This document shows, one piece after another, positions 23,244-40,125 of a stretch of DNA of 64,000 nt; within the stretch, counting starts at the first letter, position 1, and every line of letters begins with the position of its first letter. The stretch is from Ferroplasma acidarmanus Fer1. Lineage in GTDB: Archaea > Thermoplasmatota > Thermoplasmata > Thermoplasmatales > Thermoplasmataceae. The position numbers were made by a program, and so were the translations under genes. Where the stretch lies: NCBI RefSeq assembly GCF_000152265.2, contig NC_021592.1, forward strand, positions 1,364,001 to 1,428,000, given 5' to 3'. The notes beneath the pieces are model-generated. The model worked only from the letters and a program-made list of their open reading frames with translations, had not been told where the DNA came from and did no database searches.

Positions 23244-23297
23244 AACTATACCATTTTGTAATTTCTTATAAATAACCACACAGAATTAAAACAATAG

Positions 23298-23314
23298 TGC
23301 GGAGGGTCGGATTT
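23298..23314. other. Left attachment site (att) copy
   Basis: This is an exact 17-bp copy of the tRNA-Leu(CAA) 3' end, lying 40 bases before the integrase gene and with no tRNA body next to it. After the shared bases the sequence leaves the tRNA (ACACTAAA here against GAACCGG in the tRNA), so it is an att remnant rather than a decayed tRNA gene. Confidence 0.85.
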
Positions 23315-23353
23315 ACACTAAAAGGTTAAATCCCTTCACACAATAAATGTGGC

Positions 23354-24607
23354 ATGGGCATATATTTGATAGATCGGGATCTGGCAGCAGAATATGCAAG
23401 ATTAGATAAGTTAGAGGGAAAAGCAAGGGACACGATAAAGGATTTTGTAGATGAAATAAAAATTACAGGAATAACAAAATACAGGGAATACTTCTATCTT
23501 GTGAGATTAAGGATTATATATAGCGAGATGCAGGATAAATTTTTAAATCCAGACAAAAAATCAATAATAGAAATGCTTTTAAAGTTCAAGGAGAGGTATA
23601 GCGATGCAACCTTTCAGGATTATGAGCAGGTAATCAAACGTTTTTATAAATGGAAACTTGGCACCGTGCCGGATTACATAGCAAATCTAAAATTCGGTCA
23701 TAAGGCAAGCCATGACAGGAAAATAGATTTGATAACCAGGGGCGATATCGATAAGATGGTTGATAGTTGCACCAATTCAAGGGATAAGGCGTTTGTTTCA
23801 ATCCTATACGATTCAGGGTGCAGGATAGGGGAAATACTTTCATTGAGAATATCTGACGTAAGATATGATGAATACGGGGCAATTCTAAATGTCCATGGAA
23901 AGACAGGAAACAGGAGCGTAAGGATAATAGGGAATTCCATAGCTTATTTGCGAGAATATTTAAAATCCAAGGATGACAAGGATGAATTCCTGTTCACCGG
24001 AATGAAAGCGGATACAATGCATAAACAAATGCAGTATACCAGTGCCAGGAAGATTTTGCTTAGCTTGAAAGCCAGGGCAGGCATAGAAAAGAAGATTTAC
24101 GCACATTTATTCAGGCATACAAGGGCTTCCATGCTGGCTTCTAAAGTGCCGGAAGCACCGCTCGAGAACCAGATGGGGTGGATTCATGGGTCAAAGATGA
24201 CGGGTGTTTATGTCCATCTATCAATGAGGGATCAGGACAATGCGATTTTAAAGGCATACGGGGTTAAAGTCAGTGAAGAGGACAATATAACAGAGGAAAA
24301 GCCCAAGAAATGCCCCAGATGTGAACATTTGAACGCTTCCACTGCTTTATACTGCACGAATTGCTTTATGCCATTTGATGAGAAGCTGGCACTGGAATAT
24401 GAAGGCAAGGAAAAGGAGATAGTTGGCACACTGGAAAGGTCTTCCGTCGTTCCAGGAATGGCAAAGAGCATACTTGAAAAGGCACCGGATGAGTTTAAGG
24501 GCAAATTAATCGAGAACATCCTTGAACAGATTTTAAAAAATCCGGAGATGCTAAGCAAACTAAGGAATGAGATAAAGAATGGGATGGAGGGTGAAAATCT
24601 GGAATAA
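23354..24607 (+). CDS. XerA-like tyrosine integrase with zinc ribbon
   Basis: A 417-aa tyrosine recombinase. The N-terminal half is a SAM-like DNA-binding domain. The catalytic domain has Arg in DSGCRIGEIL (about 156), HLFRHTRAS (HxxR, about 250) and the nucleophile Tyr in GVYVHLSM (about 284). A C-terminal zinc ribbon follows (CPRCEHLN then YCTNC), then a charged tail. It lies just inside the left att site and points inward, so it is the likely integrase. The gene is not split by integration, unlike SSV-type integrases. ATG at 23354 is the natural start. Confidence 0.9.
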   Translation: MGIYLIDRDLAAEYARLDKLEGKARDTIKDFVDEIKITGITKYREYFYLVRLRIIYSEMQDKFLNPDKKSIIEMLLKFKERYSDATFQDYEQVIKRFYKWKLGTVPDYIANLKFGHKASHDRKIDLITRGDIDKMVDSCTNSRDKAFVSILYDSGCRIGEILSLRISDVRYDEYGAILNVHGKTGNRSVRIIGNSIAYLREYLKSKDDKDEFLFTGMKADTMHKQMQYTSARKILLSLKARAGIEKKIYAHLFRHTRASMLASKVPEAPLENQMGWIHGSKMTGVYVHLSMRDQDNAILKAYGVKVSEEDNITEEKPKKCPRCEHLNASTALYCTNCFMPFDEKLALEYEGKEKEIVGTLERSSVVPGMAKSILEKAPDEFKGKLIENILEQILKNPEMLSKLRNEIKNGMEGENLE

Positions 24608-24686
24608 TGTTGATAATAAAGGGGTTTTTGTTAAAGCAACATGGTGAATCATGAAACAAAATTACATTTTTAAATATTCTAAAATT

Positions 24687-24921
24687 AAGTTGGGACAACT
24701 TTTTTACGAGCTAAAAACCTTAATTTCACGGTTTCCAGAGTGTATAACAACCTGTCCCAACTTGTGTACTATACCATCGCATAAAAAAAAGTTGTCTATA
24801 TATATATAGATGAAATTGAAAAAGTACAGAAATAAATAGTACATAGGTTGGGACACATATTATTATTGGTGAAAAACCGTGAAATTCAACGTTTCCGATT
24901 AAAATAAATCTGTCCCAACTT
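24687..24921. repeat. Dyad-symmetric iteron region, candidate replication origin
   Basis: Four 11-bp sites occur: AAGTTGGGACA at 24687-24697, its complement at 24753-24763, AGGTTGGGACA at 24845-24855 and TGTCCCAACTT at 24911-24921. Both inward-facing pairs have exactly 66-bp spacing. AATTTCACGGTTT at 24722-24734 is matched by its complement at 24874-24886. All three mirrored pairs have the same centre (24804), next to an AT palindrome TCTATATATATATAGA at 24795-24810. The rest of 24608-25062 is AT-rich and gene-free. This order of sites fits an initiator-bound origin or partition site. Confidence 0.7.
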
Positions 24922-25062
24922 GTTTTTGCACTCATAAATTTATGATTAACATAAAAGAAAGTCAAATAAAAATTCTATTTTTTAATACTGCTTGAAGCTA
25001 TACTGGTTAAGTCACATATACTGCTTACAATAATAAAATAATTACATAACAGTTTTACGTTA

Positions 25063-26238
25063 TTATTCTTTATCCAACCTTAATTTTCCATGCGCTCTGT
25101 AAAAGCGGGAATATTTATATAACACATGCATATACGGAACGAAAATATCAGAAAAAACCACTGTACTAAAATAATGACCCATTTCCATATATGTCTCATT
25201 TTTTTTATTCCTGTTGACATACACCCTTCCGGTAAGATATGGGGCAAGAAGTGGAATTTTATGCTGGTCAAACTCCCATTCGGCTATAACGAAGAAGAAC
25301 CCTATAAACGCTGAATGAAATCCAAAAATAGGGAATGGAGCCCTAAATTTATCATCCCTTTCCTTATTTTTTCCCAGATGCTCTAATTCAAATCCAGGAA
25401 TAATGTAACTCTGTTTCCTTGATTTCAACAAACTTTTCTGTTCGTCTAACTCTTTTTCCATCTCTTCTTTATAAAGGTTAAAATATATCTCATCATTGCC
25501 AATCCATTTTAGTGCATCGAGAGATTCTTTGCTAATGGTTATATTATCTACATTATCCAATCTGGAAAAAATTAAGATAGAATCAAGAGGGGAAAAATCA
25601 TACAGTGAGCCAATATATAAGGAAGAAAGTACCCTGGTACGTGCAGCCTTCGATAGGTCGTTCAAAGGGGATGGATTTAATACTGACCTGAAGAATGTTC
25701 GTATGATTTCTGGTAATGAAACATCATCGGAAACAAAAGATTCAATTAGAATTCTTACACTGTCGAACCATTCAAACTCTTTTTCTGTTAGCGACACGGT
25801 AAAATTTATTGTTTTTTCTGGTACGTGGGGATTTTCTCCGTGTGGAAACTCCTCACCACCCTTTAAATCCGATTCAATGTTTATTTTTTCATTCCACGGA
25901 ATTTGGCTTGGGTGAAACGATCTCTCTGTCCATAGGTTATTGTGGTAATAATTTTTCAATTTAGAAATTATATCGTTTATATTTTTAGGTAATTTTGATA
26001 TATCGGTTCCATGATTGATAAAAAAAGGCGTGAGCCTTAAATTAGCCAACTCTATATCTGCCATCATTAAATCAATAGATGCACTCAAGGCAATAGCTTT
26101 TAAAACATCATTAAGTTGCCAAGATGGCACTCTTGATTTTCCAGAAAAGAGGCAACTTTCATATACAGAATACAAGAATTCATAATCATCCTTCGAGAAA
26201 GAAACGGATACACGTTTTTGGGAAATGCGTTCACTCAT
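25063..26238 (-). CDS. Element protein with two RHH-like segments, unknown function
   Basis: A 391-aa protein that I do not recognise. The N-terminus (KRVSVSFSKDDYEFLYSVYE) and a central segment (KTINFTVSLTEKEFEWFDSV) both read as strand followed by helix, so the protein may hold two RHH-like modules in one chain. The C-terminal third has hydrophobic and aromatic runs (FGFHSAFIGFFFVIAEWEF), but no clear membrane anchor. It is divergent from the RHH-led replication operon and borders the iteron region, so DNA binding in replication or segregation is plausible but unproven. Confidence 0.55.
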   Translation of the reverse strand: MSERISQKRVSVSFSKDDYEFLYSVYESCLFSGKSRVPSWQLNDVLKAIALSASIDLMMADIELANLRLTPFFINHGTDISKLPKNINDIISKLKNYYHNNLWTERSFHPSQIPWNEKINIESDLKGGEEFPHGENPHVPEKTINFTVSLTEKEFEWFDSVRILIESFVSDDVSLPEIIRTFFRSVLNPSPLNDLSKAARTRVLSSLYIGSLYDFSPLDSILIFSRLDNVDNITISKESLDALKWIGNDEIYFNLYKEEMEKELDEQKSLLKSRKQSYIIPGFELEHLGKNKERDDKFRAPFPIFGFHSAFIGFFFVIAEWEFDQHKIPLLAPYLTGRVYVNRNKKNETYMEMGHYFSTVVFSDIFVPYMHVLYKYSRFYRAHGKLRLDKE

Positions 26239-26271
26239 GAGAGAGATAATATGAATATATTATTAAATTTT

Positions 26272-26292
26272 TTGGTAGGAATACCGTACCAA
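26272..26292. promoter_or_regulatory. Inverted repeat in divergent promoter region
   Basis: TTGGTA at 26272-26277 and TACCAA at 26287-26292 form an inverted repeat with nine bases between the arms. It lies in the control region shared by the leftward gene ending at 25063 and the rightward operon starting at 26368. It may be an operator for the RHH protein encoded just downstream. Confidence 0.4.
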
Positions 26293-26367
26293 TATATTAT
26301 AATAAATGCTTGGAAAGTAACAATGCATTTAAATACTTTGTTGCGTATAAAGTGCGTAGTGACAGTA

Positions 26368-26532
26368 ATGAGTGAAGGAAAAGCGGCAAGGAATGAGAAA
26401 AGGATCGACATCTCGATCAGGCTTGATGATAAAATAAAAATAATGCGAAAGGCAGGAAAAATGGGCGTTTCTGTGTCACGGTTAATGGTAATGGCAGCGC
26501 TGGATTACGAGCCAAATTGTGTGATAAGGTGA
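26368..26532 (+). CDS. RHH-like regulator, 54 aa, heads replication operon
   Basis: A 54-residue basic protein. The strand RIDISIRLDD is followed by two helices (KIKIMRKAGKMG, SVSRLMVMAAL), matching ribbon-helix-helix regulators. The ATG at 26368 is chosen because the sequence upstream in this frame is AT-rich leader DNA with no coding character. The next gene starts inside its stop (GTGA). It probably regulates operon expression and copy number. Confidence 0.6.
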   Translation: MSEGKAARNEKRIDISIRLDDKIKIMRKAGKMGVSVSRLMVMAALDYEPNCVIR

Positions 26533-26642
26533 TAAAAACGGCGAATCAAGAAGATGTTGAAAAGCCCAGATGGTTGGAATTATGGAGCAAAGTGTTGGCA
26601 AATGGAACAGATGCAGCAGATATGGAGGTTATTGAGAAATGA
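26529..26642 (+). CDS. 37-aa mini-protein in replication operon
   Basis: A 37-codon frame starting with GTG and rich in Trp and acidic residues (KPRWLELWSKVL). It overlaps the RHH stop by four bases and the next start by four bases (ATGA). The double overlap and the lack of any other use for this DNA suggest it is translated. No family recognised. Confidence 0.45.
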   Translation: MIKTANQEDVEKPRWLELWSKVLANGTDAADMEVIEK

Positions 26643-26812
26643 AAAAAAATATCTTAATAGCCCAACCGCCAAGTTTAGCTATTCCATCTCCAAGTATGTA
26701 TACCATTAGAATACTTAAATATTTTGGTATCGTGGTGGAGAGTGTTGATTTTATTGATTTTTTCAATGTTTTTGAGAAGAAAAACACTGGAAACTACGGC
26801 GGTTTAATATGA
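26639..26812 (+). CDS. 57-aa mini-protein before prim-pol
   Basis: A 57-codon frame starting MKKNILIAQPPSLAIPSPS, then a hydrophobic stretch and an acidic, aromatic segment (VDFIDFFNVFEKKN). Its start lies in the previous stop and its own stop overlaps the prim-pol start, both as ATGA. The coupling suggests a role linked to replication, but no domain is recognised. Confidence 0.45.
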   Translation: MKKNILIAQPPSLAIPSPSMYTIRILKYFGIVVESVDFIDFFNVFEKKNTGNYGGLI

Positions 26813-29751
26813 TAAATGAAAAATACGACGCGGAGATAATAGCGGCAGCCAAAAAATACACCAAAGCGGGTCTGCCAATATTTCCAACGAAACCGGGTTC
26901 AAAAGAGCCAGACACCGTTCACGGTTTTAAGGATGCCACAAATGATTTTAACAAATTCATGCAGATGCATAGACCTGGAGATGGTATCGCGATGCCCACA
27001 GGCGCGTCAACTTATATTATCATCGACCCAGATGTCGCCAAGGATGAAAATAAAAAACCAATTAAAAAAGATGGAAAAGTTATACGTATCGGGCTTGATA
27101 ATCTGTGCAAACAGTTCAATTTGCTTGGTTTGGAAGATTCAAAACTCCAAACACTCGTGACGGAAACGCAAAGCGGCGGAGACCATTTTTGGTTTAGGAA
27201 CCCGAAGGGAAAGCCGCCACTTAAAAAAATGCAGGGGAATGAAAACAATGGCATAGATAAAGTTGACATTCAGGCGGAGGGCGCGTATGTTGTGTTGCCA
27301 CCGACAGAAGGCAAGTTTGGAAAGTACAAATTTATTACAGATGTCCCATTTGACGAAATTCCAGAAATGCCCTTAGAATTTTACAACTTCTTTGCCGGAA
27401 CAGAAAAAAAATCAGAAAATGACGCCGACTTAATTGAATATGGCGGAGAATACCATCCAAGCAATTTTAAATTTGATAATGAGAAAACCCCTTTATTAAT
27501 TTCGACCATTGCCGACATAACAAAGCGATCGAATACCGGAATCGGAGCTGAGATGACTATGTATATAACAGGAACTCTCGCATTTCACAACTTCGAAGAA
27601 CCCCACGCCTTAGCAGTATTGAAAAAGGTAGCCAACATCAACGGCTACGAAAAAACTGATTGGATTCCCATTGTTAAGGACACGTACAAAAAATTCGGTA
27701 CCAAAGATAAAAACGGAAATCAACATAAAATCCGCGGGTTGCCATGGCTTAAAAAACTGTTGGCAGAGCATAAAGAATTCTGGAACAATTATGACGAGAT
27801 AATTAAAAATCTGGAAATTCTTTTTCCAGAAAATCTATACGATATAGCAGAACGAATGTTAAATCTCGCACGAGTAGGACCTGCCAAAGTCGTGTCTATA
27901 ATTTTAGAAACAGAACATGTGGTCACAAAATCCGATAATACCACCGACCTGGAAGAGATTTATCTATATCACGATGGTTTCTATGCACGTGGTGAAGAAG
28001 AACTAAAAATTGAATCGGCAAGAATTTATACAGATGCGTGGAATAAAGCTTTAGAATTAGCAAATAAACTCGCCCCTAAAACTGACGAATTAAGCCCTGA
28101 TACTACAAAAGCAATTTTCGAAATCAGAGAATCGATGAAAAAAGTAATAGAAAGGGGACCAACGAGAAGCCAAATAAACGAAACGCTAGCTCAGCTAAGG
28201 CTTGCCACGTATACTAACCCTGATAAGTTCAATCCCGATTCGCACATACCGTTTTTAAATGGATACCTGAATACAAAAACGTGGAAATTGGAACCCCACA
28301 ACCCCGATTTGATATACCTATGGAGAATTGAAGCCAATTTGAATGCGGATAAGCTGGATGTAGTTCGCTTGCAGGATTCCCCAAAATTCTCTAAATTTAT
28401 CAATGAAACGTTTGAAGATCGTGATATACCCCTAATATTGCAATATTTTGGTTACACCATGTATCCAGATTTTCCGCGCCAGATGGTATTATTCATGACC
28501 GGGCGGGAGAGGGTAGGCAAAGGTTCCCTAGTTAGAATCCTGAAAAAAATGAATCCATATGGATATGGGTCAATTTCATTTGAAAAGTTAATAATGAATG
28601 ATAATCGATTTGCATTTCAGGGAATAGAAGGAAAGAATTTATTGGTAGATACTGAAATTATGCGATATCACCGAAGAGGTCAAACAATCGACTATAGGAA
28701 TATAAATAAACTTTTTGGCGGAGACGTCATCGACCTGGAAAAAAAAGGCGTAACACCGACAGATTATATTTCCAAAGCAAAAGGTATATTTTTGGGCAAT
28801 TTACCTTTGCCGAAAGTCACTGACGAGCCTTTTCTAGCCAGAGTTATATTGGTAAAAACAAAGGATCATAAGATAGAACAGGGGGAAAGAATTGCAAATA
28901 TCGAAGACGTAATTTTATCCGAAGAACGGGATACCATAGCAACCTTACTTGTTCATCATCTAATGGAATTATCCGCAAATAATTGGAATTTCACCAATGA
29001 AATGACTACCGACGAAACCGTTGAATTATGGAATCTGCTTTCTGATATTGTCGAGTTTTACACCGATGATGAGATTGACGATGTGCCGGAGATGGAAATT
29101 CCCGTCAATACAGTTTACGACTCCTTTAAAAGATGGTCAAAAGCAAAAGGTATTCCACTGATGGCGCAACAAACTTTCACAAAATATTTTGGTAAGAATT
29201 ATATCAAAAAAAGAATTCGGGGAGAAAATAAAGAACGTATATACGTTTTTACGGGTTGTTCTTTCCATAAGGGAAACGGTGAAATCGAAAACAACATAAA
29301 AGACACAGATTCCGGTCCTGATGATGGCAATATCAGTACACCTTCTCTAAAACCGGAATACAAAATTGAGAACTTGCCAGAGGGACCTGTCAAGCAGGAA
29401 TTCATCGAACGCCATGAAGATTTGCAGAATGAGAAATTAAAATCCCATGAAAAACACTTAAATTCTACGGAATCTCAAGAAAAAGTCTTAAACAATAATA
29501 CTCACAATGAATGCAAAAATACAGAAAAGGTAGAGAAAATCCTATTCTATAAGACAAAAAAAGAGTATAATAATACTGTCATGGATGCTTTTAAACGTGG
29601 GGATTATTTTTATTATAAGATAAGCACACTTGAAATAAACGATGGTTCAAAGGAATGGATTTCGTGGGTAACAACAGCAGATTCGATTCTTGAAGCTACA
29701 TTTACGGCACTAAAAAATGCAAAAGGCAGTCAGGTGATGCCCCGTGAATAA
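26809..29751 (+). CDS. Prim-pol / SF3 helicase replication protein
   Basis: A 980-aa two-domain replication protein. The N-terminal prim-pol domain (about 1-200) has the acidic motif IIIDPDVA near residue 72, SGGDHFWF near 125 and EGAYVVLPPT near 165. The C-terminal half is a D5-like SF3 helicase with Walker A GRERVGKGSLV near 562 and the downstream acidic motif in NLLVDTEI. A winged-helix-like segment follows (about 760-820), with an acidic tail after it. It would prime and unwind element DNA, probably starting from the iterons at 24687-24921. It does in one chain what two genes do in the element at 67-2851. Confidence 0.85.
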   Translation: MINEKYDAEIIAAAKKYTKAGLPIFPTKPGSKEPDTVHGFKDATNDFNKFMQMHRPGDGIAMPTGASTYIIIDPDVAKDENKKPIKKDGKVIRIGLDNLCKQFNLLGLEDSKLQTLVTETQSGGDHFWFRNPKGKPPLKKMQGNENNGIDKVDIQAEGAYVVLPPTEGKFGKYKFITDVPFDEIPEMPLEFYNFFAGTEKKSENDADLIEYGGEYHPSNFKFDNEKTPLLISTIADITKRSNTGIGAEMTMYITGTLAFHNFEEPHALAVLKKVANINGYEKTDWIPIVKDTYKKFGTKDKNGNQHKIRGLPWLKKLLAEHKEFWNNYDEIIKNLEILFPENLYDIAERMLNLARVGPAKVVSIILETEHVVTKSDNTTDLEEIYLYHDGFYARGEEELKIESARIYTDAWNKALELANKLAPKTDELSPDTTKAIFEIRESMKKVIERGPTRSQINETLAQLRLATYTNPDKFNPDSHIPFLNGYLNTKTWKLEPHNPDLIYLWRIEANLNADKLDVVRLQDSPKFSKFINETFEDRDIPLILQYFGYTMYPDFPRQMVLFMTGRERVGKGSLVRILKKMNPYGYGSISFEKLIMNDNRFAFQGIEGKNLLVDTEIMRYHRRGQTIDYRNINKLFGGDVIDLEKKGVTPTDYISKAKGIFLGNLPLPKVTDEPFLARVILVKTKDHKIEQGERIANIEDVILSEERDTIATLLVHHLMELSANNWNFTNEMTTDETVELWNLLSDIVEFYTDDEIDDVPEMEIPVNTVYDSFKRWSKAKGIPLMAQQTFTKYFGKNYIKKRIRGENKERIYVFTGCSFHKGNGEIENNIKDTDSGPDDGNISTPSLKPEYKIENLPEGPVKQEFIERHEDLQNEKLKSHEKHLNSTESQEKVLNNNTHNECKNTEKVEKILFYKTKKEYNNTVMDAFKRGDYFYYKISTLEINDGSKEWISWVTTADSILEATFTALKNAKGSQVMPRE

Positions 29752-29956
29752 TTTTAGTATTCAACTACCGTTAAATAAATCGCATTGCCTCATAAATGCC
29801 CGTGGCAATTATTATTACGTCGATTTCACGGAACACACCATTTCGAAAATAAGCCCAGAATTCGTAAATATGTACGATATCAAGGACATTGTGAATCTGA
29901 ATTTATCAGTTAAAGAGTTGTTGAATTCACTTCCAGATTTCATAGAGGTGGATTAA
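29744..29956 (+). CDS. 70-aa hypothetical protein
   Basis: A small protein beginning with GTG (MNNFSIQLPLNKSHCLINAR), overlapping the end of the replication gene by eight bases. It is rich in Asn, Ile and Leu and ends LPDFIEVD. No domain recognised. It lies in a close-packed operon in which each gene touches the next. Confidence 0.55.
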   Translation: MNNFSIQLPLNKSHCLINARGNYYYVDFTEHTISKISPEFVNMYDIKDIVNLNLSVKELLNSLPDFIEVD

Positions 29957-30109
29957 ATGGTTAATTCCGTATTTTTTAAAAAATTGAAAAGCCTGAATTT
30001 TACCGGTTTTCAGGGCTATATAGAAGGTGAGAAAGTGTTTGAAAAATTAAAAAACATAATAAAGAGGATTGCCGGCAAGAGAGAAAGGAAAAAATCTACA
30101 GGTGCTTAA
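29957..30109 (+). CDS. 50-aa basic mini-protein
   Basis: A 50-codon frame starting directly after the previous stop (TAAATG). It is strongly basic, with a C-terminal run KRIAGKRERKKS, and carries no acidic patch, so nucleic-acid binding is possible. The Sm-like gene starts two bases after its stop. Family unknown. Confidence 0.45.
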   Translation: MVNSVFFKKLKSLNFTGFQGYIEGEKVFEKLKNIIKRIAGKRERKKSTGA

Positions 30110-30110
30110 A

Positions 30111-30524
30111 ATGAATGATAAGCGCGAAGCGGTAAAAGTTCTGCAACCGGATGGCACAATCAAGATTTTGTTCCGGACAACTCATGAATCTGTGGGTATG
30201 AAACAAGAACCACAAAAAGATACAATTCAGGAAAAGCCACAAAATACTGATAGCCATGCTCAAAATATAAAAAAGCACGAGAAAGGGTCATCCATAGATG
30301 CGGGAAGATTCTTTAATCCTTGGAATCCAGGCTTTGCTGATATATTCGGAAAAAATTTGATTGGTAAAACCATGAATATAACACTGCTTAACGGTGAGAT
30401 TTTAAGCGGAGTACTTCGTGGATTTGGGCAATATGATATTCTTCTGGAATCAGGTGGAAAGAATGTTATACTCATGAAGTCTGGAATAGTTAAAATCGAG
30501 GTGCAAAATGAGCCAGAAAATTAA
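30111..30524 (+). CDS. Sm/Hfq-like protein with disordered N-terminus
   Basis: A 137-aa protein. A charged, low-complexity N-terminal half (about 1-80, many Gln, Lys and Glu) is followed by a C-terminal barrel-like domain: GKTMNITLLNGEILSGVLRG, then FGQYDILLESG and LMKSGIVKIEV. The short strands, the Gly-rich turn and the final strand resemble Sm1/Sm2 motifs of Sm, LSm and Hfq proteins, which form rings that bind U-rich RNA. An in-frame start at 30069 is possible, but ATG 30111 fits the operon spacing. RNA binding is inferred from the fold pattern only. Confidence 0.55.
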   Translation: MNDKREAVKVLQPDGTIKILFRTTHESVGMKQEPQKDTIQEKPQNTDSHAQNIKKHEKGSSIDAGRFFNPWNPGFADIFGKNLIGKTMNITLLNGEILSGVLRGFGQYDILLESGGKNVILMKSGIVKIEVQNEPEN

Positions 30525-30714
30525 AGATTTAAATTCTCCATTGCTCCGATTAAAAGGCAAATCGGTCAAAGCAACCATAATGGTAGCAGATTCAGCAAAT
30601 TACTACTCTGGCACGTTAATCGATACCGATGGTGAATCTATACTTTTATCTACTTCCCAGGGACTGGTATACCTTCCATCTGGCTTTTTAATTGCGGTAG
30701 AGGTGCAGAAATGA
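30508..30714 (+). CDS. Second small Sm-like protein, 68 aa
   Basis: A 68-aa protein that is almost only a barrel-like core: LRLKGKSVKATIMVAD, YYSGTLIDTDGESILLST and LVYLPSGFLIAVEV. The order of strands and the Asp/Gly turn look like an LSm fold, with the length of a bare Sm domain. It overlaps the preceding Sm-like gene by 17 bases and the next gene by four. The two may form mixed rings. Confidence 0.5.
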   Translation: MSQKIKDLNSPLLRLKGKSVKATIMVADSANYYSGTLIDTDGESILLSTSQGLVYLPSGFLIAVEVQK

Positions 30715-30914
30715 CATCAATTCTTAATTTTCCAGAACCCTGGCAATTTGTTTTAAAATCGTTGAAAGAAAGCCCGAAAACATTCCAGGAATTACTAAAA
30801 CTTGGGATTTCAGAGCAAAAACTCAATGAGATACTTCAGTCAATGGAGCAGCTTAAAATAATTCGTGAAGGGCGGGGATTCTGCTATTTCTTGAAAAACA
30901 AAGAGGTGAAATAA
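30711..30914 (+). CDS. Winged-helix-like DNA-binding protein, 67 aa
   Basis: A 67-residue protein whose helices (FQELLKLGISEQKLNEILQ) followed by a hairpin (QLKIIREGRGFCYFLK) match a minimal winged helix-turn-helix. It overlaps the previous stop by four bases, and the next gene starts at once. It probably regulates transcription of the element. Confidence 0.55.
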   Translation: MTSILNFPEPWQFVLKSLKESPKTFQELLKLGISEQKLNEILQSMEQLKIIREGRGFCYFLKNKEVK

Positions 30915-31178
30915 ATGTTAAAATCTCTATGTATTCCGGAGCAGAAAAGTCTCGATGACTTTAAAAGAATGCCCCCGATTTACAATCAATTTGAAGCATT
31001 GATTTCCAAGTTTCAATCGAAGTATGGCTTCGAAAAAAAACCTGATTGCCAGTCATTGTTTGAGTTCACATACGAACTACAGCATGGCAATCAAAGATTA
31101 CGGAATATGAGTTTTGTAGGATTTTCCAGAGCATATAGAATATATTCAAAAATTAAACAAAAGGAGGCAATAAGATGA
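30915..31178 (+). CDS. 87-aa hypothetical protein
   Basis: A mostly helical, charged protein starting MLKSLCIPEQKSLDDFKR. It starts directly after the wHTH stop, and the next gene overlaps its end by four bases. No motif recognised. Confidence 0.5.
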   Translation: MLKSLCIPEQKSLDDFKRMPPIYNQFEALISKFQSKYGFEKKPDCQSLFEFTYELQHGNQRLRNMSFVGFSRAYRIYSKIKQKEAIR

Positions 31179-31375
31179 TTAAAGAATTTTTAGAAATTGA
31201 ACCGGTGGGTCCGGATGATTATCCCCCTGAAAAGCCGGATAATTCGAAGCCAGAACCAATTATCCCGCCATTGAGTCCGAATCCGGAACCATTCATACCG
31301 GATTATTTGCCAGACGATATATCGCCCGATTCCGATGACGGCGAGGAAAGTGAAATACGAGAGGTGTTAAAATGA
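31175..31375 (+). CDS. Proline-rich acidic protein, 66 aa
   Basis: A 66-residue low-complexity protein, very rich in Pro, Asp and Glu (EPIIPPLSPNPEPFIPDY). It is probably extended and disordered. Such chains can act as linkers, acidic DNA mimics or binding platforms; none of these can be chosen from sequence. It overlaps both neighbours by four bases. Confidence 0.5.
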   Translation: MIKEFLEIEPVGPDDYPPEKPDNSKPEPIIPPLSPNPEPFIPDYLPDDISPDSDDGEESEIREVLK

Positions 31376-31626
31376 GTTTGATAAAAAGAAAAGTCAAAAC
31401 TATTGGACATAGGAAAATGAACAAGGAAGAGTTTGAGAGATTCTGGGGTGGAAGCAACGAAGTGTGCCAGATTGACACGGGCGGCGGTGACTATATAATC
31501 GTCGATAAGGTGGATTTTGATGTCAAAACCCAGAAATTAAAAGTTTTTGTGGGTGAAAAAGAAATCGGGATTTTGAGTTTATCCGAATTTGTGGAAAAAA
31601 AGAAAAATAATGAGAAGGTGAAATAA
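31372..31626 (+). CDS. 84-aa beta-rich hypothetical protein
   Basis: A basic protein with a helical N-terminus (NKEEFERFWGGSNE) and a likely beta-hairpin section (DYIIVDKVDFDVKTQKLKVF). It could be another small barrel, but the match to Sm motifs is weak. It starts in the stop of the proline-rich gene, and the next gene begins immediately after its own stop. Confidence 0.5.
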   Translation: MSLIKRKVKTIGHRKMNKEEFERFWGGSNEVCQIDTGGGDYIIVDKVDFDVKTQKLKVFVGEKEIGILSLSEFVEKKKNNEKVK

Positions 31627-32154
31627 ATGAAACTGAATGAATTAAAAGAATTCATAGAGAAGAATGTCGGTCCGGAAGTCGTGGTTTACAATACCTATGG
31701 CGAGTGCATTGAAGGATTTTTCAGTCCTGTTATTGATACTGCAGAAAAAAGCTGTAAGCTACTTTGCCCCAGATTCCTCGGCGATGTCCCATATTATGTT
31801 GATATGAATGATGTCAAAAGGGTCGTTTTGAAGGGGTCTGATTTCAGATCTAAAGTATCCGGCAATATTCAGAAATTCAAAATAATGAACATTGAACAGC
31901 TGGATGCGCTCCTAGTCTCCACGAAAAAGGGTATGACGGTCGAGCTCTTCGATAGGGAGAACAAACATTTGGCATATGGTGCGATTGAATATTATGGAGA
32001 TATATTAGATATGTGGGGCATTTCGATTGTCGCACCCGACCCAAAATCCAGGCGCATGGGCGGTATAATCGTAAATACAGAAGATGTTAGGTTTATCAGC
32101 ATTTTTGATATCAATGCGATTTTTGGGAACGGCACCACAATGGATGTTGATTAG
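31627..32154 (+). CDS. Tandem Sm-like barrel protein, 175 aa (tentative)
   Basis: The 175-aa protein seems built of two similar halves. Each starts with a helix (NELKEFIEKNV; NIEQLDALLVSTKK), then a strand after Gly (PEVVVYN; MTVELFD), a Gly-containing bent strand pair, and a last strand after a short turn (DMNDVKRVVL; NTEDVRFISI). Helix plus five strands is the layout of the Sm fold, so this may be a fused pair of Sm-like barrels. The similarity is weak by eye, and a structure prediction would decide. Confidence 0.45.
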   Translation: MKLNELKEFIEKNVGPEVVVYNTYGECIEGFFSPVIDTAEKSCKLLCPRFLGDVPYYVDMNDVKRVVLKGSDFRSKVSGNIQKFKIMNIEQLDALLVSTKKGMTVELFDRENKHLAYGAIEYYGDILDMWGISIVAPDPKSRRMGGIIVNTEDVRFISIFDINAIFGNGTTMDVD

Positions 32155-32155
32155 A

Positions 32156-32455
32156 ATGCCAAGGAAGATTGTTGATTGGAAGACAGAAAACGTATATCGT
32201 GACATAATTTTTGAACTCCCTGGAATCATGGAACGAAATGAGTGGCTACGATATATGTATCAGAATTTCCAGGAAGCAGAAGACCCTTCCGTAGCAAGCC
32301 CCTGGAGAAGTGCTATCCCGTATCGTGAAAATTCACATGTATCGAATCGCAAAAAATCACAGGAATTCACAAAATTAAGCCTTGTGGAAATGATGGATGA
32401 GAGTTGCCTTAGAAGGTTCTGGCTTACAAAGAGGGTGAAGGAAGAATATGAGTGA
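32156..32455 (+). CDS. 99-aa hypothetical protein
   Basis: A basic, aromatic protein starting MPRKIVDWKTENVYRD. I chose ATG at 32156, one base after the previous stop; an earlier in-frame ATG would overlap that gene by 70 bases. It overlaps the next gene by eight bases. Domain unknown. Confidence 0.5.
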   Translation: MPRKIVDWKTENVYRDIIFELPGIMERNEWLRYMYQNFQEAEDPSVASPWRSAIPYRENSHVSNRKKSQEFTKLSLVEMMDESCLRRFWLTKRVKEEYE

Positions 32456-33110
32456 TGAAGGCTTAAACGATTTAAAAAAGATATACGATAAACTTCTTTA
32501 TCTTGCACAATTTCCAGGAAGCAATTCACAATCACCTGCCACACTGCTTAAATGGTATGAGGACTTAAGCACTTTTTACTCTCTAATGAAAAATTTTGCC
32601 AATACGCAATTATTGGATGAAAATCAAAATACCATGGAAAAATTCGAAGCACTGTTAAAAAGCTACCGTGGACCATCTGATTTTCAATATTTTATTCTAA
32701 AAGGCTATGATATATTATTCGAATTTTTGGAGGGGTTAGCCGGAATTTTCCATGCAAACGGCTTAATGAATTCCGAGCAGGGGAAGGCGATAATCCACGA
32801 CATGATTAACAAATGCTTTGATTTTGTACAGAATAACAGGATTGACAACAACAGCTCTATATTTTTGTGGGAATGCCATTTGGACGGCTTAAATGCCCTG
32901 TTAATAGGCTTTGGCGAGAAGGCATATTCAACAGATTACCGATTGATTAAGGATCAGCTGGTAAAAATCGCAAATGAGCCAGGTTACAGTGAGGACCGTG
33001 AATTTTTATATGTAAAGGCACTGCGCCAGTATTTTGAGATTATGATTCAATGGCTTAATCAATGGGACCCGAACATACTCATCCCCCTGAATTTGTCAAA
33101 AAGCAGGTGA
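32448..33110 (+). CDS. 220-aa helical hypothetical protein
   Basis: A long mostly helical protein with repeated aromatic and Leu-rich segments (LKKIYDKLLYLAQF, FLEGLAGIFHANGLM, YFEIMIQWLNQW). No membrane helix and no known motif. It directly precedes the P-loop ATPase, so it could be a partner or adaptor of that enzyme. Confidence 0.5.
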   Translation: MSDEGLNDLKKIYDKLLYLAQFPGSNSQSPATLLKWYEDLSTFYSLMKNFANTQLLDENQNTMEKFEALLKSYRGPSDFQYFILKGYDILFEFLEGLAGIFHANGLMNSEQGKAIIHDMINKCFDFVQNNRIDNNSSIFLWECHLDGLNALLIGFGEKAYSTDYRLIKDQLVKIANEPGYSEDREFLYVKALRQYFEIMIQWLNQWDPNILIPLNLSKSR

Positions 33111-33116
33111 TTTAAA

Positions 33117-34259
33117 ATGCATACATTTTTAATGGATTTGAACAACGAGCGGCAACAAAAATTTAAGGAAGATTTTCCGGAATCTTTCAATGGCATACAG
33201 TTTAACCTTGATGTCTTTTTGTATTATTTTGGTTATTCTGAAAGCCTGTTTATCAAAAAGAGATACAAATTAGATTTAAAGGATAAGCGGGCACAGTTAT
33301 TGCTAGAGGATTTTCCCGAAGCCATGGATGGTGAATTCTTGGATATTCAGGAATTATATGAGGCACTGGATCGGGATTTTTATCTCTTTGATAATAATCA
33401 ACCGGATACGGATTTAGATGACTTGGGCGATAACGTGGATGTAATAGTCCGGTGGACGAAACAACGAATAAAAGAAAACAGAAATTGTAGTATGTTGTTC
33501 AGCGGGGAAACTGGCTCGGGAAAATCTTACTCTGCAATAGCATTGGCAGAGAAATTAGACCCTGGATTTAACGTGGACAGGATTGTGTTCAATGTAGAGG
33601 ATTTTTTAAAATTGTCTACAAGCAATCTTCCGAAAGGAAGTGTAATAATCTTCGATGATGCGGGCGTCGGCGCGAGCAATAAGGAGTGGAATTCCTTAAG
33701 TGGTCGGATAATTGGAAAGTTTAGCCAGAACTCCCGTTATTTAAATTTGATAAATATCTACACTGTTCCTTCCCTCAACTATATCGAGAAGCAGTCAAGA
33801 GAGCTCATAAATCTATATTTCGAATCTACAAAAATCCAGGGGGATGCCAAGGTCTTTCATCCATTTAGAGTGTTCAGGGGGGCAGACACTCTCGGTTTTA
33901 AATATCCAAAATTATGGATTGGGAACATCCCGATTACGATAAGTAAGTTGCACTTTAATCTCGCATCCAGAGATTTGTTAGAGGCTTATGAAAATGCAAA
34001 ACAAACTTATATGAATCGTGTTAATAAGGAATTTTTACATGAAATCCAGGAAGCACAAAGAGAGAAAAAGGAAAAATTGAATAAGAAAAATGGGACAGGT
34101 AAAGGTGACAATAAAAAGGAAACGAATAATGACATAATAAAAATTATAAAGTTGAAGATGAAGGGGCTTTCTGTGCGGGACATAGCAAAATCAACCGGCG
34201 TGCCAAGAAGCACCGTCCAGCGTGTAATATCAGAGATTAACAGTGATGATGATTTATGA
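33117..34259 (+). CDS. P-loop ATPase with C-terminal helix-turn-helix
   Basis: A 380-aa protein with Walker A SGETGSGKSY near residue 130 and Walker B SVIIFDDAG near 178. This resembles the Zot/FtsK-like ATPases of mobile elements, which move DNA or serve packaging, transfer or partition. After a charged linker (about 300-335) comes a resolvase-like HTH: MKGLSVRDIAKSTGVPRST (about 349-367). The HTH suggests it binds a specific DNA site, perhaps the repeats just downstream. It is the last gene of the operon. I cannot tell between packaging, conjugation and segregation roles. Confidence 0.65.
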   Translation: MHTFLMDLNNERQQKFKEDFPESFNGIQFNLDVFLYYFGYSESLFIKKRYKLDLKDKRAQLLLEDFPEAMDGEFLDIQELYEALDRDFYLFDNNQPDTDLDDLGDNVDVIVRWTKQRIKENRNCSMLFSGETGSGKSYSAIALAEKLDPGFNVDRIVFNVEDFLKLSTSNLPKGSVIIFDDAGVGASNKEWNSLSGRIIGKFSQNSRYLNLINIYTVPSLNYIEKQSRELINLYFESTKIQGDAKVFHPFRVFRGADTLGFKYPKLWIGNIPITISKLHFNLASRDLLEAYENAKQTYMNRVNKEFLHEIQEAQREKKEKLNKKNGTGKGDNKKETNNDIIKIIKLKMKGLSVRDIAKSTGVPRSTVQRVISEINSDDDL

Positions 34260-34275
34260 TTTATCCTGTATTAAA

Positions 34276-34426
34276 GTGTCCCATGGCATTATAACTTCAT
34301 ATATATGACAAAACCTTTAAAACTCTATTTCTGTGAATTATTTCATCTTAATAACCCGAAATATGCGTGGGACACTTGCAAAACCTTTAAAATCAATGAT
34401 TTATTCCCATTTGGGATTGTGTCCCA
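34276..34426. repeat. GTGTCCCA repeat cluster with CAAAACCTTTAAAA pair
   Basis: GTGTCCCA occurs at 34276-34283 and 34419-34426 and inverted (TGGGACAC) at 34368-34375. CAAAACCTTTAAAA occurs at 34309-34322 and 34379-34392, 70 bases apart. TCCCA/TGGGA arms at 34405-34416 form a small hairpin. The TGTCCCA core is the same as in the iterons at 24687-24921. It lies directly downstream of the ATPase operon and may bind the same initiator or the ATPase HTH. Confidence 0.55.
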
Positions 34427-34769
34427 TTGGAATGTCTATTAATATTTAATTAAATTAGGCGTGCGTGGAAGCGTTCAAAAATGGGCATTTCGCCCGTCCC
34501 ATATTTGTTTTTTTAAAGATCAGTTGCAAAATAAGTATAGGATACTATAAGAAAAACCTGCAAATCTTTTAAGGCACTGGTCTATTATCTATCCCCACCC
34601 ACAAAAAACGCAATATAATTTAATATAAAGCGTTTGAATAAAAATAAAATTCGTGTTATACTGCATTTTCATGAGAATATCATAAAAGTATCACAAAATT
34701 ATGCCATATGGATTATGTTCATGGATTGATACCAATTCTGGGATGTAGATGTTAATTATCATCTAATCG

Positions 34770-34905
34770 CTCGTGGGTGTTAAATACATACCGTTAAAAC
34801 ACATAGTAAGTCCCGACTATTAACTTACACCGTTAGTATAATTTAAAAACTTACTATGAATTAATTAATCAATCTCATGGGTGTTAAATACATACTGTTA
34901 AAACA
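34770..34905. repeat. 32-bp direct repeat enclosing an inverted repeat
   Basis: A 32-bp unit containing TGGGTGTTAAATACATAC occurs at 34770-34801 and 34874-34905 with two mismatches, 104 bases apart. Between the copies, CATAGTAAGT (34802-34811) is mirrored by ACTTACTATG (34849-34858). No gene covers this. It may be a second regulatory, partition or origin-like locus. Confidence 0.6.
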
Positions 34906-34926
34906 TACATGGACTACCGATTTATA

Positions 34927-35232
34927 ATTCCATATAAGACTTTTATAAATTAACTCTATATGACCTTACAATCATTAACAGTGTGATAGGTTATGCCAGG
35001 CAATGCAAATATTTCTATTAAAAACACGGCTTTAAGCGGTTAAAAATGCCACAATGCCTTCCATAGCCTTAAATTCGCAGTTTAAGGCAGTTATTTTGCC
35101 TTAATGGTTAATTATGTATCCATTGCATTGAAATAATTAAAATAAGCCTATCTTATAAAAATAAATATGGATTTTGCCATTTTCTGAATAGGTTTTTAAT
35201 TTCAAAATGATGTTAATAGGTTAAAGAAATTT
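34927..35232. other. Gene-free stretch with one hairpin
   Basis: AT-rich DNA with no credible gene. TTAAGGCA at 35082-35089 and TGCCTTAA at 35097-35104 form an eight-base-pair stem with a seven-base loop. It could be a small structured RNA or a protein site. A 16-codon ATG frame near 34993 was not accepted. Confidence 0.35.
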
Positions 35233-35337
35233 ACATTGACGTTCTGTATATAAAATGTCAATGTTTTTGCCATAAATATTATGGATTGTATGCCAATATC
35301 AATGTGAAAGTTTAATAAACATTGACGTATTTCTAAA
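35233..35337. promoter_or_regulatory. ACATTGAC repeats upstream of compact recombinase
   Basis: ACATTGAC at 35233-35240, its complement within TGTCAATGTTT at 35256-35266, and AAACATTGAC at 35327-35336 lie before the recombinase start at 35339. The first pair forms an inverted repeat around an AT-rich TATATAAAA. This looks like a promoter with operator sites; alternatively they are recombinase arm-type sites. Confidence 0.45.
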
Positions 35338-35338
35338 T

Positions 35339-35905
35339 ATGTCAAGTATGGAAATTATAACACGCAATGAGATCAGAATCTTAAGACCTGATGGATACCA
35401 TGCACTGAGGGAAGGTTCTAAGAAATTATCAAACCAGATATGGCTAGATGCTATGCTCCTTACCGGAATGAGATATGAGGAGCTGAGGAGATTGCAGCAA
35501 TATCCTTCATGGTTTAAAGGCGGCTATATAGACATGCCAAAGGGGAATGGCAACAAAACTAAAAAATATGCAAGGCAGAGGGAGCGGACCATACACTTAA
35601 GCACTATGGGAAAAATCATACTGCCCATATTCCTGCAGGGGAAGGTTCTCCCATCCAGGCAATCCATGGATATTAATTTAAAGAGGTGGGCATGGAATGC
35701 ACCAATGAATGATACTGATATTTCTGTGAAAACCTTTAGAAAGACATGGGAATCGTGGATGGTGTCTTCCTATCCTGGAATGAAAGCGGAAATATTTTTA
35801 AGCCAGGGGCATACTGAAATGATTTCATTGAATCATTATCTCAATATACCTTTTGATGATGTTGATAGGTTAAGGATGAAGCCGTATGTAGAAGGTTGGT
35901 ACTAA
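35339..35905 (+). CDS. Compact tyrosine recombinase (catalytic domain only)
   Basis: A 188-aa protein comprising little more than a tyrosine recombinase catalytic core: Arg in LTGMRYEELRR (about 42), a Lys-rich hairpin (KTKKYARQRER), VKTFRKTW (KxxR, about 135-138), SQGHTEM and a final LNHYLNI with the probable nucleophile Tyr. The N-terminal core-binding domain of usual integrases is missing, as in some archaeal virus integrases. It may be a second integrase, a dimer resolvase or an excision factor. All motif positions are present, so it is not clearly a pseudogene. Confidence 0.7.
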   Translation: MSSMEIITRNEIRILRPDGYHALREGSKKLSNQIWLDAMLLTGMRYEELRRLQQYPSWFKGGYIDMPKGNGNKTKKYARQRERTIHLSTMGKIILPIFLQGKVLPSRQSMDINLKRWAWNAPMNDTDISVKTFRKTWESWMVSSYPGMKAEIFLSQGHTEMISLNHYLNIPFDDVDRLRMKPYVEGWY

Positions 35906-35924
35906 AAAGAAAATGATAGAAGTG

Positions 35925-36905
35925 TTATTTATTTGATGATTTTTCAGGAATTACTCCAATAACCTCTTTGAATTTGTTTAGGACAATCTTGTTGACAATA
36001 TATAGCTTTCCATCCTGCACCTCAATTGGTTCCATTTCTGACTTCTTTTCAACCCATGCCCAGTACCCATAAGGCAACTTGACGTATTTTAATTTTGTAT
36101 ACGGATTCCATTGTTCTTCCTGATATTCCAGTTTTAACATGAATATATATACATTGTTGACGTCTTCGGTCTTAAGTGCTATAGTTACATAAGCACAAAT
36201 AATAAAAGCAGTGAAGAAAACGATTAGTTGTATTATAAGGAGTTCCAGCGACCTATATATATAGTATGTATAATACAGATAAACTGGCGTAATAGCTATA
36301 AACAGTATAAGAACTATGAGGCTAGCCCAATACCATTTATTACCTTTTATTTCATATCTGATCCTCTGGCTAGAGTCAGTTAGAATGATAAAATCCCGGT
36401 CATAGTTTTTCTTCAGCTTTTTACGTTTACTAATTGCTAAAAGTCCAAAAAACCAAGGTATAAAGCTATTTTTGTCATATTTAATCAAAATCTGGTTATC
36501 GTTCAATATGTGGTTTGGGTGCGATACTATGTGAAGGTTTGAATAGAACTCAGAAAAAGATGTAAAATCACAATTCCTACATTTATATAATCTCAGATAA
36601 ACACCTTTTCTGTTGTGATAAGACTTTCTGATAGCACGAGTGAGTCCAATATAAAGCCCTATTAAGCTAAAAATAAAGATAACGCTCAATCCAGATGCGG
36701 GAGACTGGAAGTATGTAAGATAACCAAAACCAGTAAAACTATTTATCATAACTATGATGAATTGAAAAGTAAATGTCACGACAGCAAAAAATGAAGTATA
36801 CTTGAAAATGCTAAATTCTGGATTGATGCTTGAGAAGAAATTCCTATCCTTATACAGCAACTCCTTTATTATTTCCTTTTTTGTTATATATTCGTTTTCA
36901 TCCAT
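35925..36905 (-). CDS. Membrane protein with Cys2His2-like motif
   Basis: A 326-aa protein with about four membrane helices (around 38-58, 70-92, 190-212 and 220-245). A zinc-finger-like segment lies between the second and third helices: CRNCDFTSFSEFYSNLHIVSH (Cys-x2-Cys, then two His). The C-terminus is soluble. No family recognised. It lies between the compact recombinase and the methylase, transcribed leftward; possible roles include cargo, exclusion or defence. Confidence 0.55.
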   Translation of the reverse strand: MDENEYITKKEIIKELLYKDRNFFSSINPEFSIFKYTSFFAVVTFTFQFIIVMINSFTGFGYLTYFQSPASGLSVIFIFSLIGLYIGLTRAIRKSYHNRKGVYLRLYKCRNCDFTSFSEFYSNLHIVSHPNHILNDNQILIKYDKNSFIPWFFGLLAISKRKKLKKNYDRDFIILTDSSQRIRYEIKGNKWYWASLIVLILFIAITPVYLYYTYYIYRSLELLIIQLIVFFTAFIICAYVTIALKTEDVNNVYIFMLKLEYQEEQWNPYTKLKYVKLPYGYWAWVEKKSEMEPIEVQDGKLYIVNKIVLNKFKEVIGVIPEKSSNK

Positions 36906-37212
36906 AAAACAATAAGATAGGCTTCTCTATTAATTTTACTATCAACAATTTAAGGATCAATAGCTCTATAAAAATTTGTATTAAATCATGGTTACTCCAA
37001 AAATACTGAACACTTACTAATAACCAAAAACTCAATAGGTTGTTAGAAATATTATCATGTTAAAGATGCCTGATGATGAAAAAAAGATAATTATAGGAAA
37101 GCAATCGTATCTTAAAAACAAACAACTTTGCTGCCATATTTAACGTAAAAGGATGCCATTAACATCCAGTAAAGTAAGAAATGCCTTTATCTAACGCTAA
37201 AACAACTAATAA
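36906..37212. other. Intergenic stretch before methylase
   Basis: Roughly 300 AT-rich bases with no gene that I accept. A 28-codon frame starting at about 37057 (MLKMPDDEKKII) has no coupling or motif and is left out. The right end leads into the methylase promoter. Confidence 0.3.
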
Positions 37213-37220
37213 TTTATATA
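37213..37220 (+). promoter_or_regulatory. TATA box for leaderless methylase transcript
   Basis: TTTATATA at 37213-37220 sits about 21-28 bases before the GTG at 37241, the normal archaeal spacing from TATA box to transcript start. This supports a leaderless mRNA starting at that GTG rather than at the upstream ATG (37181), which lies before the TATA box. Confidence 0.5.
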
Positions 37221-37240
37221 TCATTTACATATATTACAAC

Positions 37241-38086
37241 GTGGAATCATTACTGGATATAAACTATAAGCCTGTGCTGAAATGGGCAGGCGGCAAGAGG
37301 CAATTATTAAATGATTTAATTAAATATATACCAAATAATTTTAATGAATACTATGAACCTTTTATAGGCGGTGGTTCATTTTTAATTAAACTATATTCCA
37401 TGGACAAAATAAGCAATGCAGTAATATCTGATCTTAACACTGATTTATACAATCTATACGTTACCATAAAATCCAATCCGTATGCATTGATAAACGAATT
37501 AAAAGACATTGAATTTAAGAATAACTCTAAAGACTATTACAAAGCAAGGGAATTATTCAATTCAACAGGTAATCTTGTAAGTAGGTCCGCATTGTTGATA
37601 TATTTAAACAAGCACTGCTACAATGGCTTATACCGTGTAAACTCACAGAATAAATTTAACGTACCATACGGAAAATATGCAAATCCAGGAATGCCTATAG
37701 AATCTGATATACTTGGGCTTTCAAACCTATTCCAGAAATGCACAATATTGAATGAGGATTTTGAAGAAGCTGTTAAGACTGCGTCAAAAGGCGATTTTGT
37801 TTATTTTGACCCGCCATATATGCCGGTGAATAAAACATCAAATTTTACAGGTTATACATCAAATGGCTTCTATGAGAAAGATCAGGAAAGGCTTTACAAG
37901 GTTTTTAAAAGGCTTTCCAGCAAGGGAGTGTATGTAATGGAAAGCAATTCTGATACAGATTTTATAAAAAATCTATACAAGGATTTCAATTTAATAGAAG
38001 TAACTGCCAGACGGAGCATTAATTCCATAGGGACTAAACGTGGGATAATCAGTGAATTAATAATAACAAATTACGGTGTTCAATAA
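37241..38086 (+). CDS. D12-class adenine-N6 DNA methyltransferase (Dam-like)
   Basis: A 281-aa methyltransferase of the Dam/DpnM class. It has the N-terminal motif KPVLKWAGGKRQLL, SAM-binding EPFIGGGSF, and catalytic YFDPPYMP. Dam-class enzymes usually methylate GATC, but specificity cannot be read directly. I prefer the GTG at 37241 because a TATA box lies just upstream; an in-frame ATG at 37181 gives 301 aa. Its stop overlaps the ATG of the nuclease-like gene (TAATG), so the two form a two-gene restriction-modification unit carried by the element. Confidence 0.85.
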   Translation: MESLLDINYKPVLKWAGGKRQLLNDLIKYIPNNFNEYYEPFIGGGSFLIKLYSMDKISNAVISDLNTDLYNLYVTIKSNPYALINELKDIEFKNNSKDYYKARELFNSTGNLVSRSALLIYLNKHCYNGLYRVNSQNKFNVPYGKYANPGMPIESDILGLSNLFQKCTILNEDFEEAVKTASKGDFVYFDPPYMPVNKTSNFTGYTSNGFYEKDQERLYKVFKRLSSKGVYVMESNSDTDFIKNLYKDFNLIEVTARRSINSIGTKRGIISELIITNYGVQ

Positions 38087-38502
38087 TGCCTGGGGGGTCT
38101 GGAACCAGGACAGGCACCGGACAGGAGTTAATGATTGAAAGCCTGCTGGAGTTTAACCACTATGATTATAAAAAGCAGGTATTTATTGGAAAGCAATTGT
38201 TCAACAACAGGTATAAGGCAGATTTTGTAGTAGATAATTCCATTATTGTAAGCCTGAAATGGCAGCAGGTGGCAGGGACTGCAGAGCAGAAGGTAATATA
38301 TGAGATAGCTTCACTAATAAAAATAATAGAGAATGATAATTTTAAAAAAGCCTATGTGGTAATAGGCGGCAATGGCTTCTCGCAAAATGCAAAGGAGTAT
38401 CTTTTCAGCCAGGAACATAGAAATATATTGAAACATGGGGATTTAGTTGAAAACATAGGTGTTGAGGACTTCATAGCAAGGTTGAACAACCATAACTTAT
38501 AA
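38086..38502 (+). CDS. PD-(D/E)XK nuclease-like partner of methylase
   Basis: A 138-aa protein. The segment YKADFVVDNSIIVSLKWQQ fits a PD-(D/E)XK core (Asp, then a strand ending in SLK), here with Ser before Leu-Lys in place of the usual Glu. An N-terminal GTRTGTGQELMIE helix supplies a possible Glu. It starts in the methylase stop codon, so it is very likely the cognate restriction endonuclease. It is short for a type II enzyme, and the nuclease call rests on pattern and context. Confidence 0.6.
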   Translation: MPGGSGTRTGTGQELMIESLLEFNHYDYKKQVFIGKQLFNNRYKADFVVDNSIIVSLKWQQVAGTAEQKVIYEIASLIKIIENDNFKKAYVVIGGNGFSQNAKEYLFSQEHRNILKHGDLVENIGVEDFIARLNNHNL

Positions 38503-38826
38503 TTCTGTTATTTCCAGGTAAACTTCCATTCGCAGTTATTGTTCTCATAATATCTTTTCTGCTATATGCCCAGTAAGGTTTTTTTTCAGTAGGCAAGGTA
38601 TAATTCTACCATGAAGCATATTTCGATTAAAATAAGGGCATTATGGAAGCGTATGACCGTATATAATCATATTATCTTTAACCGGTTTTAGACTATGGAT
38701 GTCTTATAATTTTAAGGCATGGGTTTAAAAGCATGATCTGTATTTGTAATGGAAAAAACAAATCTAAATTATTATAAGAAAGAATATAATGTGTATTTTT
38801 GTAAGGGCATTAGACTTTTATATTGA
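38503..38826. other. Gene-free right end of element
   Basis: About 320 AT-rich bases between the nuclease gene and the tRNA-Leu 3' end. No coding region and no clear repeat family was seen. It presumably carries the right integrase arm sites. Confidence 0.3.
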
Positions 38827-38911
38827 TGCGGAGGGTCGGATTTGAACCGGCGAACCCCTTTGGGAATAGATTTTGAGTCTATCACCTTTAGCCTGACTCG
38901 GTAACCTCCGC
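38827..38911 (-). tRNA. tRNA-Leu (CAA), integration target
   Basis: A class II tRNA on the minus strand: acceptor GCGGAGG/CCTCCGC with discriminator A, anticodon stem ATAGA/TCTAT around loop CTCAAAA (anticodon CAA), a long variable arm, and T stem GCCGG/CCGAC with one non-Watson-Crick pair. No intron. Its 3' 17 bases (38827-38843) form the right att copy of the 15.5-kb element, so the gene stays complete after integration. Confidence 0.93.
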
Positions 38912-38970
38912 TTGCACTGATATTGCATCATATATTATAAATTTTATAATGAATGTTATTATTACTGTTT

Positions 38971-39177: not shown

Positions 39178-39180
39178 AAT

Positions 39181-40116: not shown

Positions 40117-40125
40117 TTTATCACC

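Follow-up and report, generated by a model that had tools for sequence, protein, structure and literature searches.

Replication operon of an integrated element

The 64,000-nucleotide stretch of the Ferroplasma acidarmanus Fer1 genome analysed here (the window) contains an integrated plasmid-like element. Its extent is placed at approximately 23298-38826 because a copy of a tRNA 3′ end lies at the left, the tRNA-Leu(CAA) gene lies at the right, and an empty site is found in another genome of the same species (G092). That genome aligns to window positions 3660-16913 and 38827-40799, with 16914-38826 absent and the tRNA kept. The 17-bp core TGCGGAGGGTCGGATTT, together with 10 bp of the left flank of the empty site, occupies 23288-23314, directly before the integrase gene. 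The integrase, the borders, and the empty site show that the element is mobile, and bear out the 'mobile-element operon' of an earlier, sequence-only reading of this DNA. The element is delimited by the following features.

23298..38826, no strand: integrated plasmid-like element of ~15.5 kb, bounded by a partial tRNA-Leu copy and an intact tRNA-Leu(CAA)
23298..23314, + strand: left attachment core, a 17-bp copy from the 3′ end of tRNA-Leu
23354..24607, + strand: tyrosine integrase (PF00589, E=3.6e-21)
38827..38911, − strand: tRNA-Leu(CAA) gene with the right attachment site, the junction lying at the tRNA 3′ end

No capsid gene was recognised in the element, and an Rfam scan of it returned only the tRNA over cut-off and no small RNA; an rli60 match (38 bits, cut-off 60) was taken as chance. 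TGTCCCA/TGGGACA motifs, in inverted and direct repeats at 24686-24923 and 34275-34430, flank the replication operon and are possible origin or operator iterons. Some 1.08 kb without an evident gene (34260-35338) contains a 54-nt direct repeat (at 34770 and 34874, 78% alike) and is followed by a second, short tyrosine-recombinase-like ORF (35339-35905; PF00589, E=6e-4, under cut-off), perhaps an integrase remnant. The cargo at 37181-38502 consists of a D12-class N6-adenine methyltransferase and then a PD-(D/E)XK_11 nuclease, which may form a restriction-modification-like pair. The type I restriction-modification system at 17027-22816 (HsdM 17027-18559, HsdR 19832-22816, with an HsdS-like internal-repeat gene between them) is a separate neighbour of the element, and is also missing from G092.

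Within the element, a compact operon on the + strand opens with the gene of a 980-aa primase-polymerase/D5 helicase. Its genes overlap or abut and have ribosome sites of GAGGTG type, read by eye. The three ORFs singled out by the sequence-only reading (P0001, P0002, and P0003) are all present where it had placed them. P0001 lies on the same strand as the helicase and at operon spacing from it, with two small ORFs in the gap between them, and the P0001 and P0002 genes share a 17 nt overlap.

26809..29751, + strand: primase-polymerase/D5-type replication helicase (PF09250, E=1.2e-20; PF08706, E=3.4e-8; PF19263, E=1.1e-7)
30111..30524, + strand: P0001, Hfq/Sm-like protein with N-terminal extension
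30508..30714, + strand: P0002, predicted second small Sm-fold barrel (AlphaFold2, Foldseek to Hfq and SmF, relatives)
30711..30914, + strand: P0006, small winged-helix-like protein and conserved neighbour (weak HTH matches; relatives beside related genes)
30915..31178, + strand: P0007, 87-aa conserved operon protein (relatives in related loci L034 and L035; similar ORFs in L106 and L108)
31627..32154, + strand: P0003, orphan protein (barrel claim unsupported)
33117..34259, + strand: P-loop ATPase with C-terminal HTH (kept in related element L046)

Upstream of the primase-polymerase gene, an ORF at 26368-26532 encodes a 54-aa ribbon-helix-helix regulator-like protein with a weak NikA-like match (E=0.0015), an order that recalls orf56-orf904 of pRN1.

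Three candidate small barrels

P0001 is a genuine Sm/Hfq protein, as had been proposed from its strand and turn pattern. The domain spans residues ~79-132, behind an N-terminal extension of ~78 residues. It matches Pfam Hfq (PF17209) with E=3e-5 and 24 bits, under the curated gathering cut-off of 27, and Pfam LSM with E=0.004. In a PDB sequence search the closest solved structures are those of the Hfq of M. jannaschii (MJ1435; 5dy9 and 2qtx), which match residues 79-130 with E=5e-5; MJ1435 differs in that it is a cellular protein encoded on the chromosome and has no counterpart of the N-terminal arm of P0001. Relatives occur in 18 of the 61 genomes around the source species. A search of 350 genomes of the class with a profile built from 17 sequences of the family (A1) gave matches in 24, almost all of them from a single order. 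Pfam Hfq is matched by 15 of these 17 members (best 3.7e-7) and LSM by 11, and TIGR02383 is matched by 15 of 17 relatives. Against the PDB, the A1 profile matches 37 sequences at E<=0.01, every one Hfq or LSm. No unrelated beta protein scores better, which answers the refuting condition that the sequence-only reading had set.

At the proximal-face positions 41, 42, 56, and 57 of Hfq (E. coli numbering), the residues of P0001 are Q, Y, K, and Ser. The lysine equivalent to K56 and an aromatic residue (Y/F) at position 42 are kept in all 33 family members with that region, the Gln41 equivalent in 18 of the 33, and the His57 equivalent in 10; an NG turn is present in most of the family. In the N-terminal arm (residues 1-78), conservation among the closest relatives covers the first ~20 residues (EAIR.QQPDGSFKI.FRE); the remainder is charged and looks disordered. 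The arm has no cysteines and hence no zinc finger. When P0001 and one relative were compared with viral contigs, phages, and plasmids, only weak bacterial Hfq-like matches were obtained. The host genome has two canonical LSm genes elsewhere.

For P0002, which had also been read as Sm-like, the claim held at the level of the predicted fold and not in the profile searches. The AlphaFold2 model, with a three-sequence alignment as input, has a mean pLDDT of 83 and places a short helical turn before strands 19-26, 29-40, 44-49, 52-57, and 61-66, a five-stranded barrel whose elements follow one another as in an Sm domain. Foldseek superposes this model on M. jannaschii Hfq, among its closest folds (TM 0.72/0.85, 1.2 Å), and also on yeast SmF, with no E-value under 0.01 against the PDB. 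The P0002 sequence has no match in Pfam, PHROG, or the PDB, and no Sm, LSm, or Hfq HMM matched it. Syntenic relatives are found in four genomes (G262, G006, G029, and G220), with weak matches in long frames (L026-L031, 366-411 aa) excluded. The four-member profile finds PDB entry 1ycy (E=2.6e-4), a 'conserved hypothetical protein' that SCOP places among the Sm-like proteins. Compared with A1 by hhalign, the P0002-like profile gives P=1.7e-4 and a probability of 50%, and the direct alignment of P0001 and P0002 is better than shuffles (p=0.004). These comparisons support an Sm fold for the predicted structure of P0002; they do not support RNA binding.

P0003 had been read as two helix-plus-barrel halves, and no test either supports or refutes a barrel in this orphan protein. 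It has no match in the HMM libraries and no credible relatives in the 350 genomes or in viral contigs, its single-sequence AlphaFold2 model is unusable (pLDDT 37), and its internal repeat gives a weak signal (p=0.03-0.05 against shuffles). Matches in G021 (a 506-aa histidine-ammonia-lyase-like frame) and in G112 and G098 (frames of 450-455 aa) were taken as chance. Of the checks that the sequence-only reading had suggested, structure prediction gave an Sm topology for P0002 and nothing usable for P0003, and profile HMMs recognised P0001 and neither of the other two; its observation was two-thirds right overall.

Related loci and known counterparts

The arrangement around P0001 recurs. Among 33 related Hfq-like loci in Thermoplasmata, several of which end at contig ends, a D5-type helicase lies within 4 kb of the Hfq-like gene in 14, always upstream and on the same strand. 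At four further loci a DUF3987-like gene adjoins the Hfq gene (three weakly matched by Pfam, L043 by similarity to L110), and some loci are without a recognisable helicase. Reading of the loci identified another family, A4, whose genes come immediately 3′ to the helicase gene, which they overlap or adjoin, or one small ORF further on. The pattern of their sequences suggests that A4 proteins may be small barrels; hhalign gave them probabilities of 7-12% (7% against A1). In a class-wide search, 8 of 17 A4 matches, counted by eye and with one match in a 968-aa frame excluded, have a same-strand Hfq-like gene at a distance of ~1.6 kb or less, and an A4 member had no match in viral contigs. At locus L105 (G262), A4 (5387-5647), Hfq-like (5959-6198), and P0002-like (6430-6684) genes stand in a row. 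Because these genes co-occur in relatives, the idea of a small-barrel cluster holds as a recurring feature, with members that differ from those first proposed.

In L106 (4663-4950) and L036 (528-812), a gene for a zinc-ribbon-type protein stands just before the Hfq-like gene; another is found in L134 (7130-7492), where there is only an A4 gene. In these related elements, the zinc-ribbon genes occupy the place where plasmid homologues carry a fused zinc finger.

It is somewhat less likely than not that P0002 and A4 are SH3-like barrels of the RimP, GatD, or biotin-ligase type, functionally unrelated to Sm rings, with P0001 the only Sm protein; such a reading is compatible with every mechanism proposed below. 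The best family match of one P0002 relative is the RimP C-terminal HMM (E=2.5e-4), and the other Foldseek matches of P0002 (GatD, MscS, GerQ, the biotin-ligase C domain, and RimP-like proteins) represent the small-barrel superfold at large. The limited hhalign probabilities against A1, for P0002-like and for A4 proteins, point the same way. Against this, the P0002 model fits closely onto M. jannaschii Hfq, and the P0001 and P0002 sequences can be aligned directly.

The sequence-only reading had held that no system of this kind was described, which proved incorrect. Hfq-like proteins are encoded on the plasmids pP12-1, pCIR10, pIRI48, and pMETVU01 of Thermococcus and Methanocaldococcus, by genes immediately downstream of a helicase and apparently co-transcribed with it, and relatives are known on M. 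jannaschii ECE1 and ECE2, along with an Hfq-like protein of Pyrobaculum spherical virus (PMC3543421). Like these plasmid proteins, P0001 carries the Hfq-like domain at its C terminus, preceded by an N-terminal extension, and its gene follows a helicase on the same strand. Unlike most of them, it has no N-terminal C2H2 zinc finger; pIRI48 gp2 also lacks it (PMC3543421), so the finger is not strictly defining for the plasmid group. The element also differs from the plasmid systems in its primase-polymerase/D5 helicase, its integration at a tRNA gene, and its extra small-barrel genes. Searching ECE1 and ECE2 with the A1 profile ranked two proteins first, one per plasmid (E=1.9e-6 on ECE1 and 1.6e-3 on ECE2). 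As the paper describes, a Cys/His finger-like motif lies in the N-terminal part of each protein; the ECE1 gene stands after that of a DEAD/DEAH helicase.

Other archaeal mobile elements provide further parallels. Borgs encode Sm proteins, some with disordered N-terminal repeats (PMC9879509), and thus resemble P0001 as extended Sm/Hfq proteins of a mobile element; unlike the element here, Borgs are giant linear elements of Methanoperedens, and the extensions are tandem repeats. When the P0002 model was compared with viral folds, the best matches included two proteins of Pyrobaculum spherical virus, another archaeal mobile element with a small barrel and, in this case, a virus; these two may differ from the published Hfq-like protein. 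In the open-access literature, no description of Thermoplasmatales cases or of multi-barrel clusters was found. Helicase-linked Hfq-like genes are already known, and what is new is their extension to Thermoplasmatales and the multi-barrel clusters.

A possible role at the RNA level

The element is best viewed as an integrative plasmid-like replicon, in which the operon that starts with the primase-polymerase/helicase also contains the P0001 gene. As its most likely role, to which we give about an even chance, the Hfq-type ring would act at the RNA level, on the element's own replication-operon transcripts. P0001 would form a homomeric ring, probably hexameric, and bind U-rich single-stranded RNA through its proximal face; it may then act on the polycistronic transcript of the element through stability, translation, or copy-number control, perhaps tethered to an element protein by its N-terminal arm. 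P0002, from the overlapping gene, could be a diverged Sm-fold partner, and would more probably serve the P0001 complex as a protein-binding subunit or an accessory than bind RNA on its own. Of the RNA-chaperone set that had been envisaged for the element, the analysis supports P0001, as an Sm/Hfq protein in the company of replication genes, and P0002 by its fold alone; P0003 is unsupported as a member. The control of replication by small RNA, or protection of transcripts, that the sequence-only reading also envisaged is speculative, and Rfam gave no RNA besides the tRNA.

This RNA-level model is favoured by the Hfq HMM and PDB matches, the retained K56 and F/Y42 equivalents, and the NG turn of most family members. 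The helicase linkage, the DUF3987-like neighbours, and the position of A4 3′ of the helicase also favour it, as do the Sm topology of P0002, the borders, integrase, and empty site of the element, and the plasmid precedent with its matching gene order (PMC3543421). It is weakened by the lack of an Rfam small RNA, by the Ser at the H57 equivalent of P0001, and by the score under the Pfam cut-off. It is further weakened by the resemblance of P0002 to small barrels that do not bind RNA (GatD, MscS, the biotin-ligase C domain), with Foldseek E-values above 0.01, and by related loci in which a helicase is not recognisable.

We judge it unlikely that the target of the Hfq-like ring is DNA, or transcripts still being made, at the origin of replication rather than mRNA, with the ring as a nucleoid- or helicase-associated cofactor and the small barrels as helicase adaptors. 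The genetic linkage to replication helicases would fit such a role, as would the A4 genes that overlap or abut the helicase stop codon and the zinc-ribbon gene before the Hfq gene in L106. The fused C2H2 finger carried by most plasmid homologues also suggested DNA targeting to those who described them (PMC3543421). However, the residues that are kept belong to the RNA-binding proximal face of Hfq, and P0001 itself has no zinc finger. Interference with, or insertion into, the host RNA machinery (the two LSm proteins, the exosome, and RNase P), for example as mixed rings favouring element transcripts, is improbable: the host does encode two canonical LSm proteins, and the element protein belongs to a different subfamily from them, but the linkage is to element replication genes rather than to host-takeover genes.

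It would be a long shot that the Hfq-like, P0002-type, and (in relatives) A4-type subunits assemble into a single heteromeric Sm-type complex, as a mixed ring or a stack, and link the replication helicase with RNA of the element; if true, mobile elements would have an equivalent of the heteromeric Sm rings of eukaryotes. Helicase-linked Hfq-like genes are a recurrent part of Thermoplasmatales integrative elements, and travel with one or two more families of putative small barrels. What had been anecdotal co-occurrence becomes a testable association of RNA-binding rings with the replication of archaeal mobile elements.
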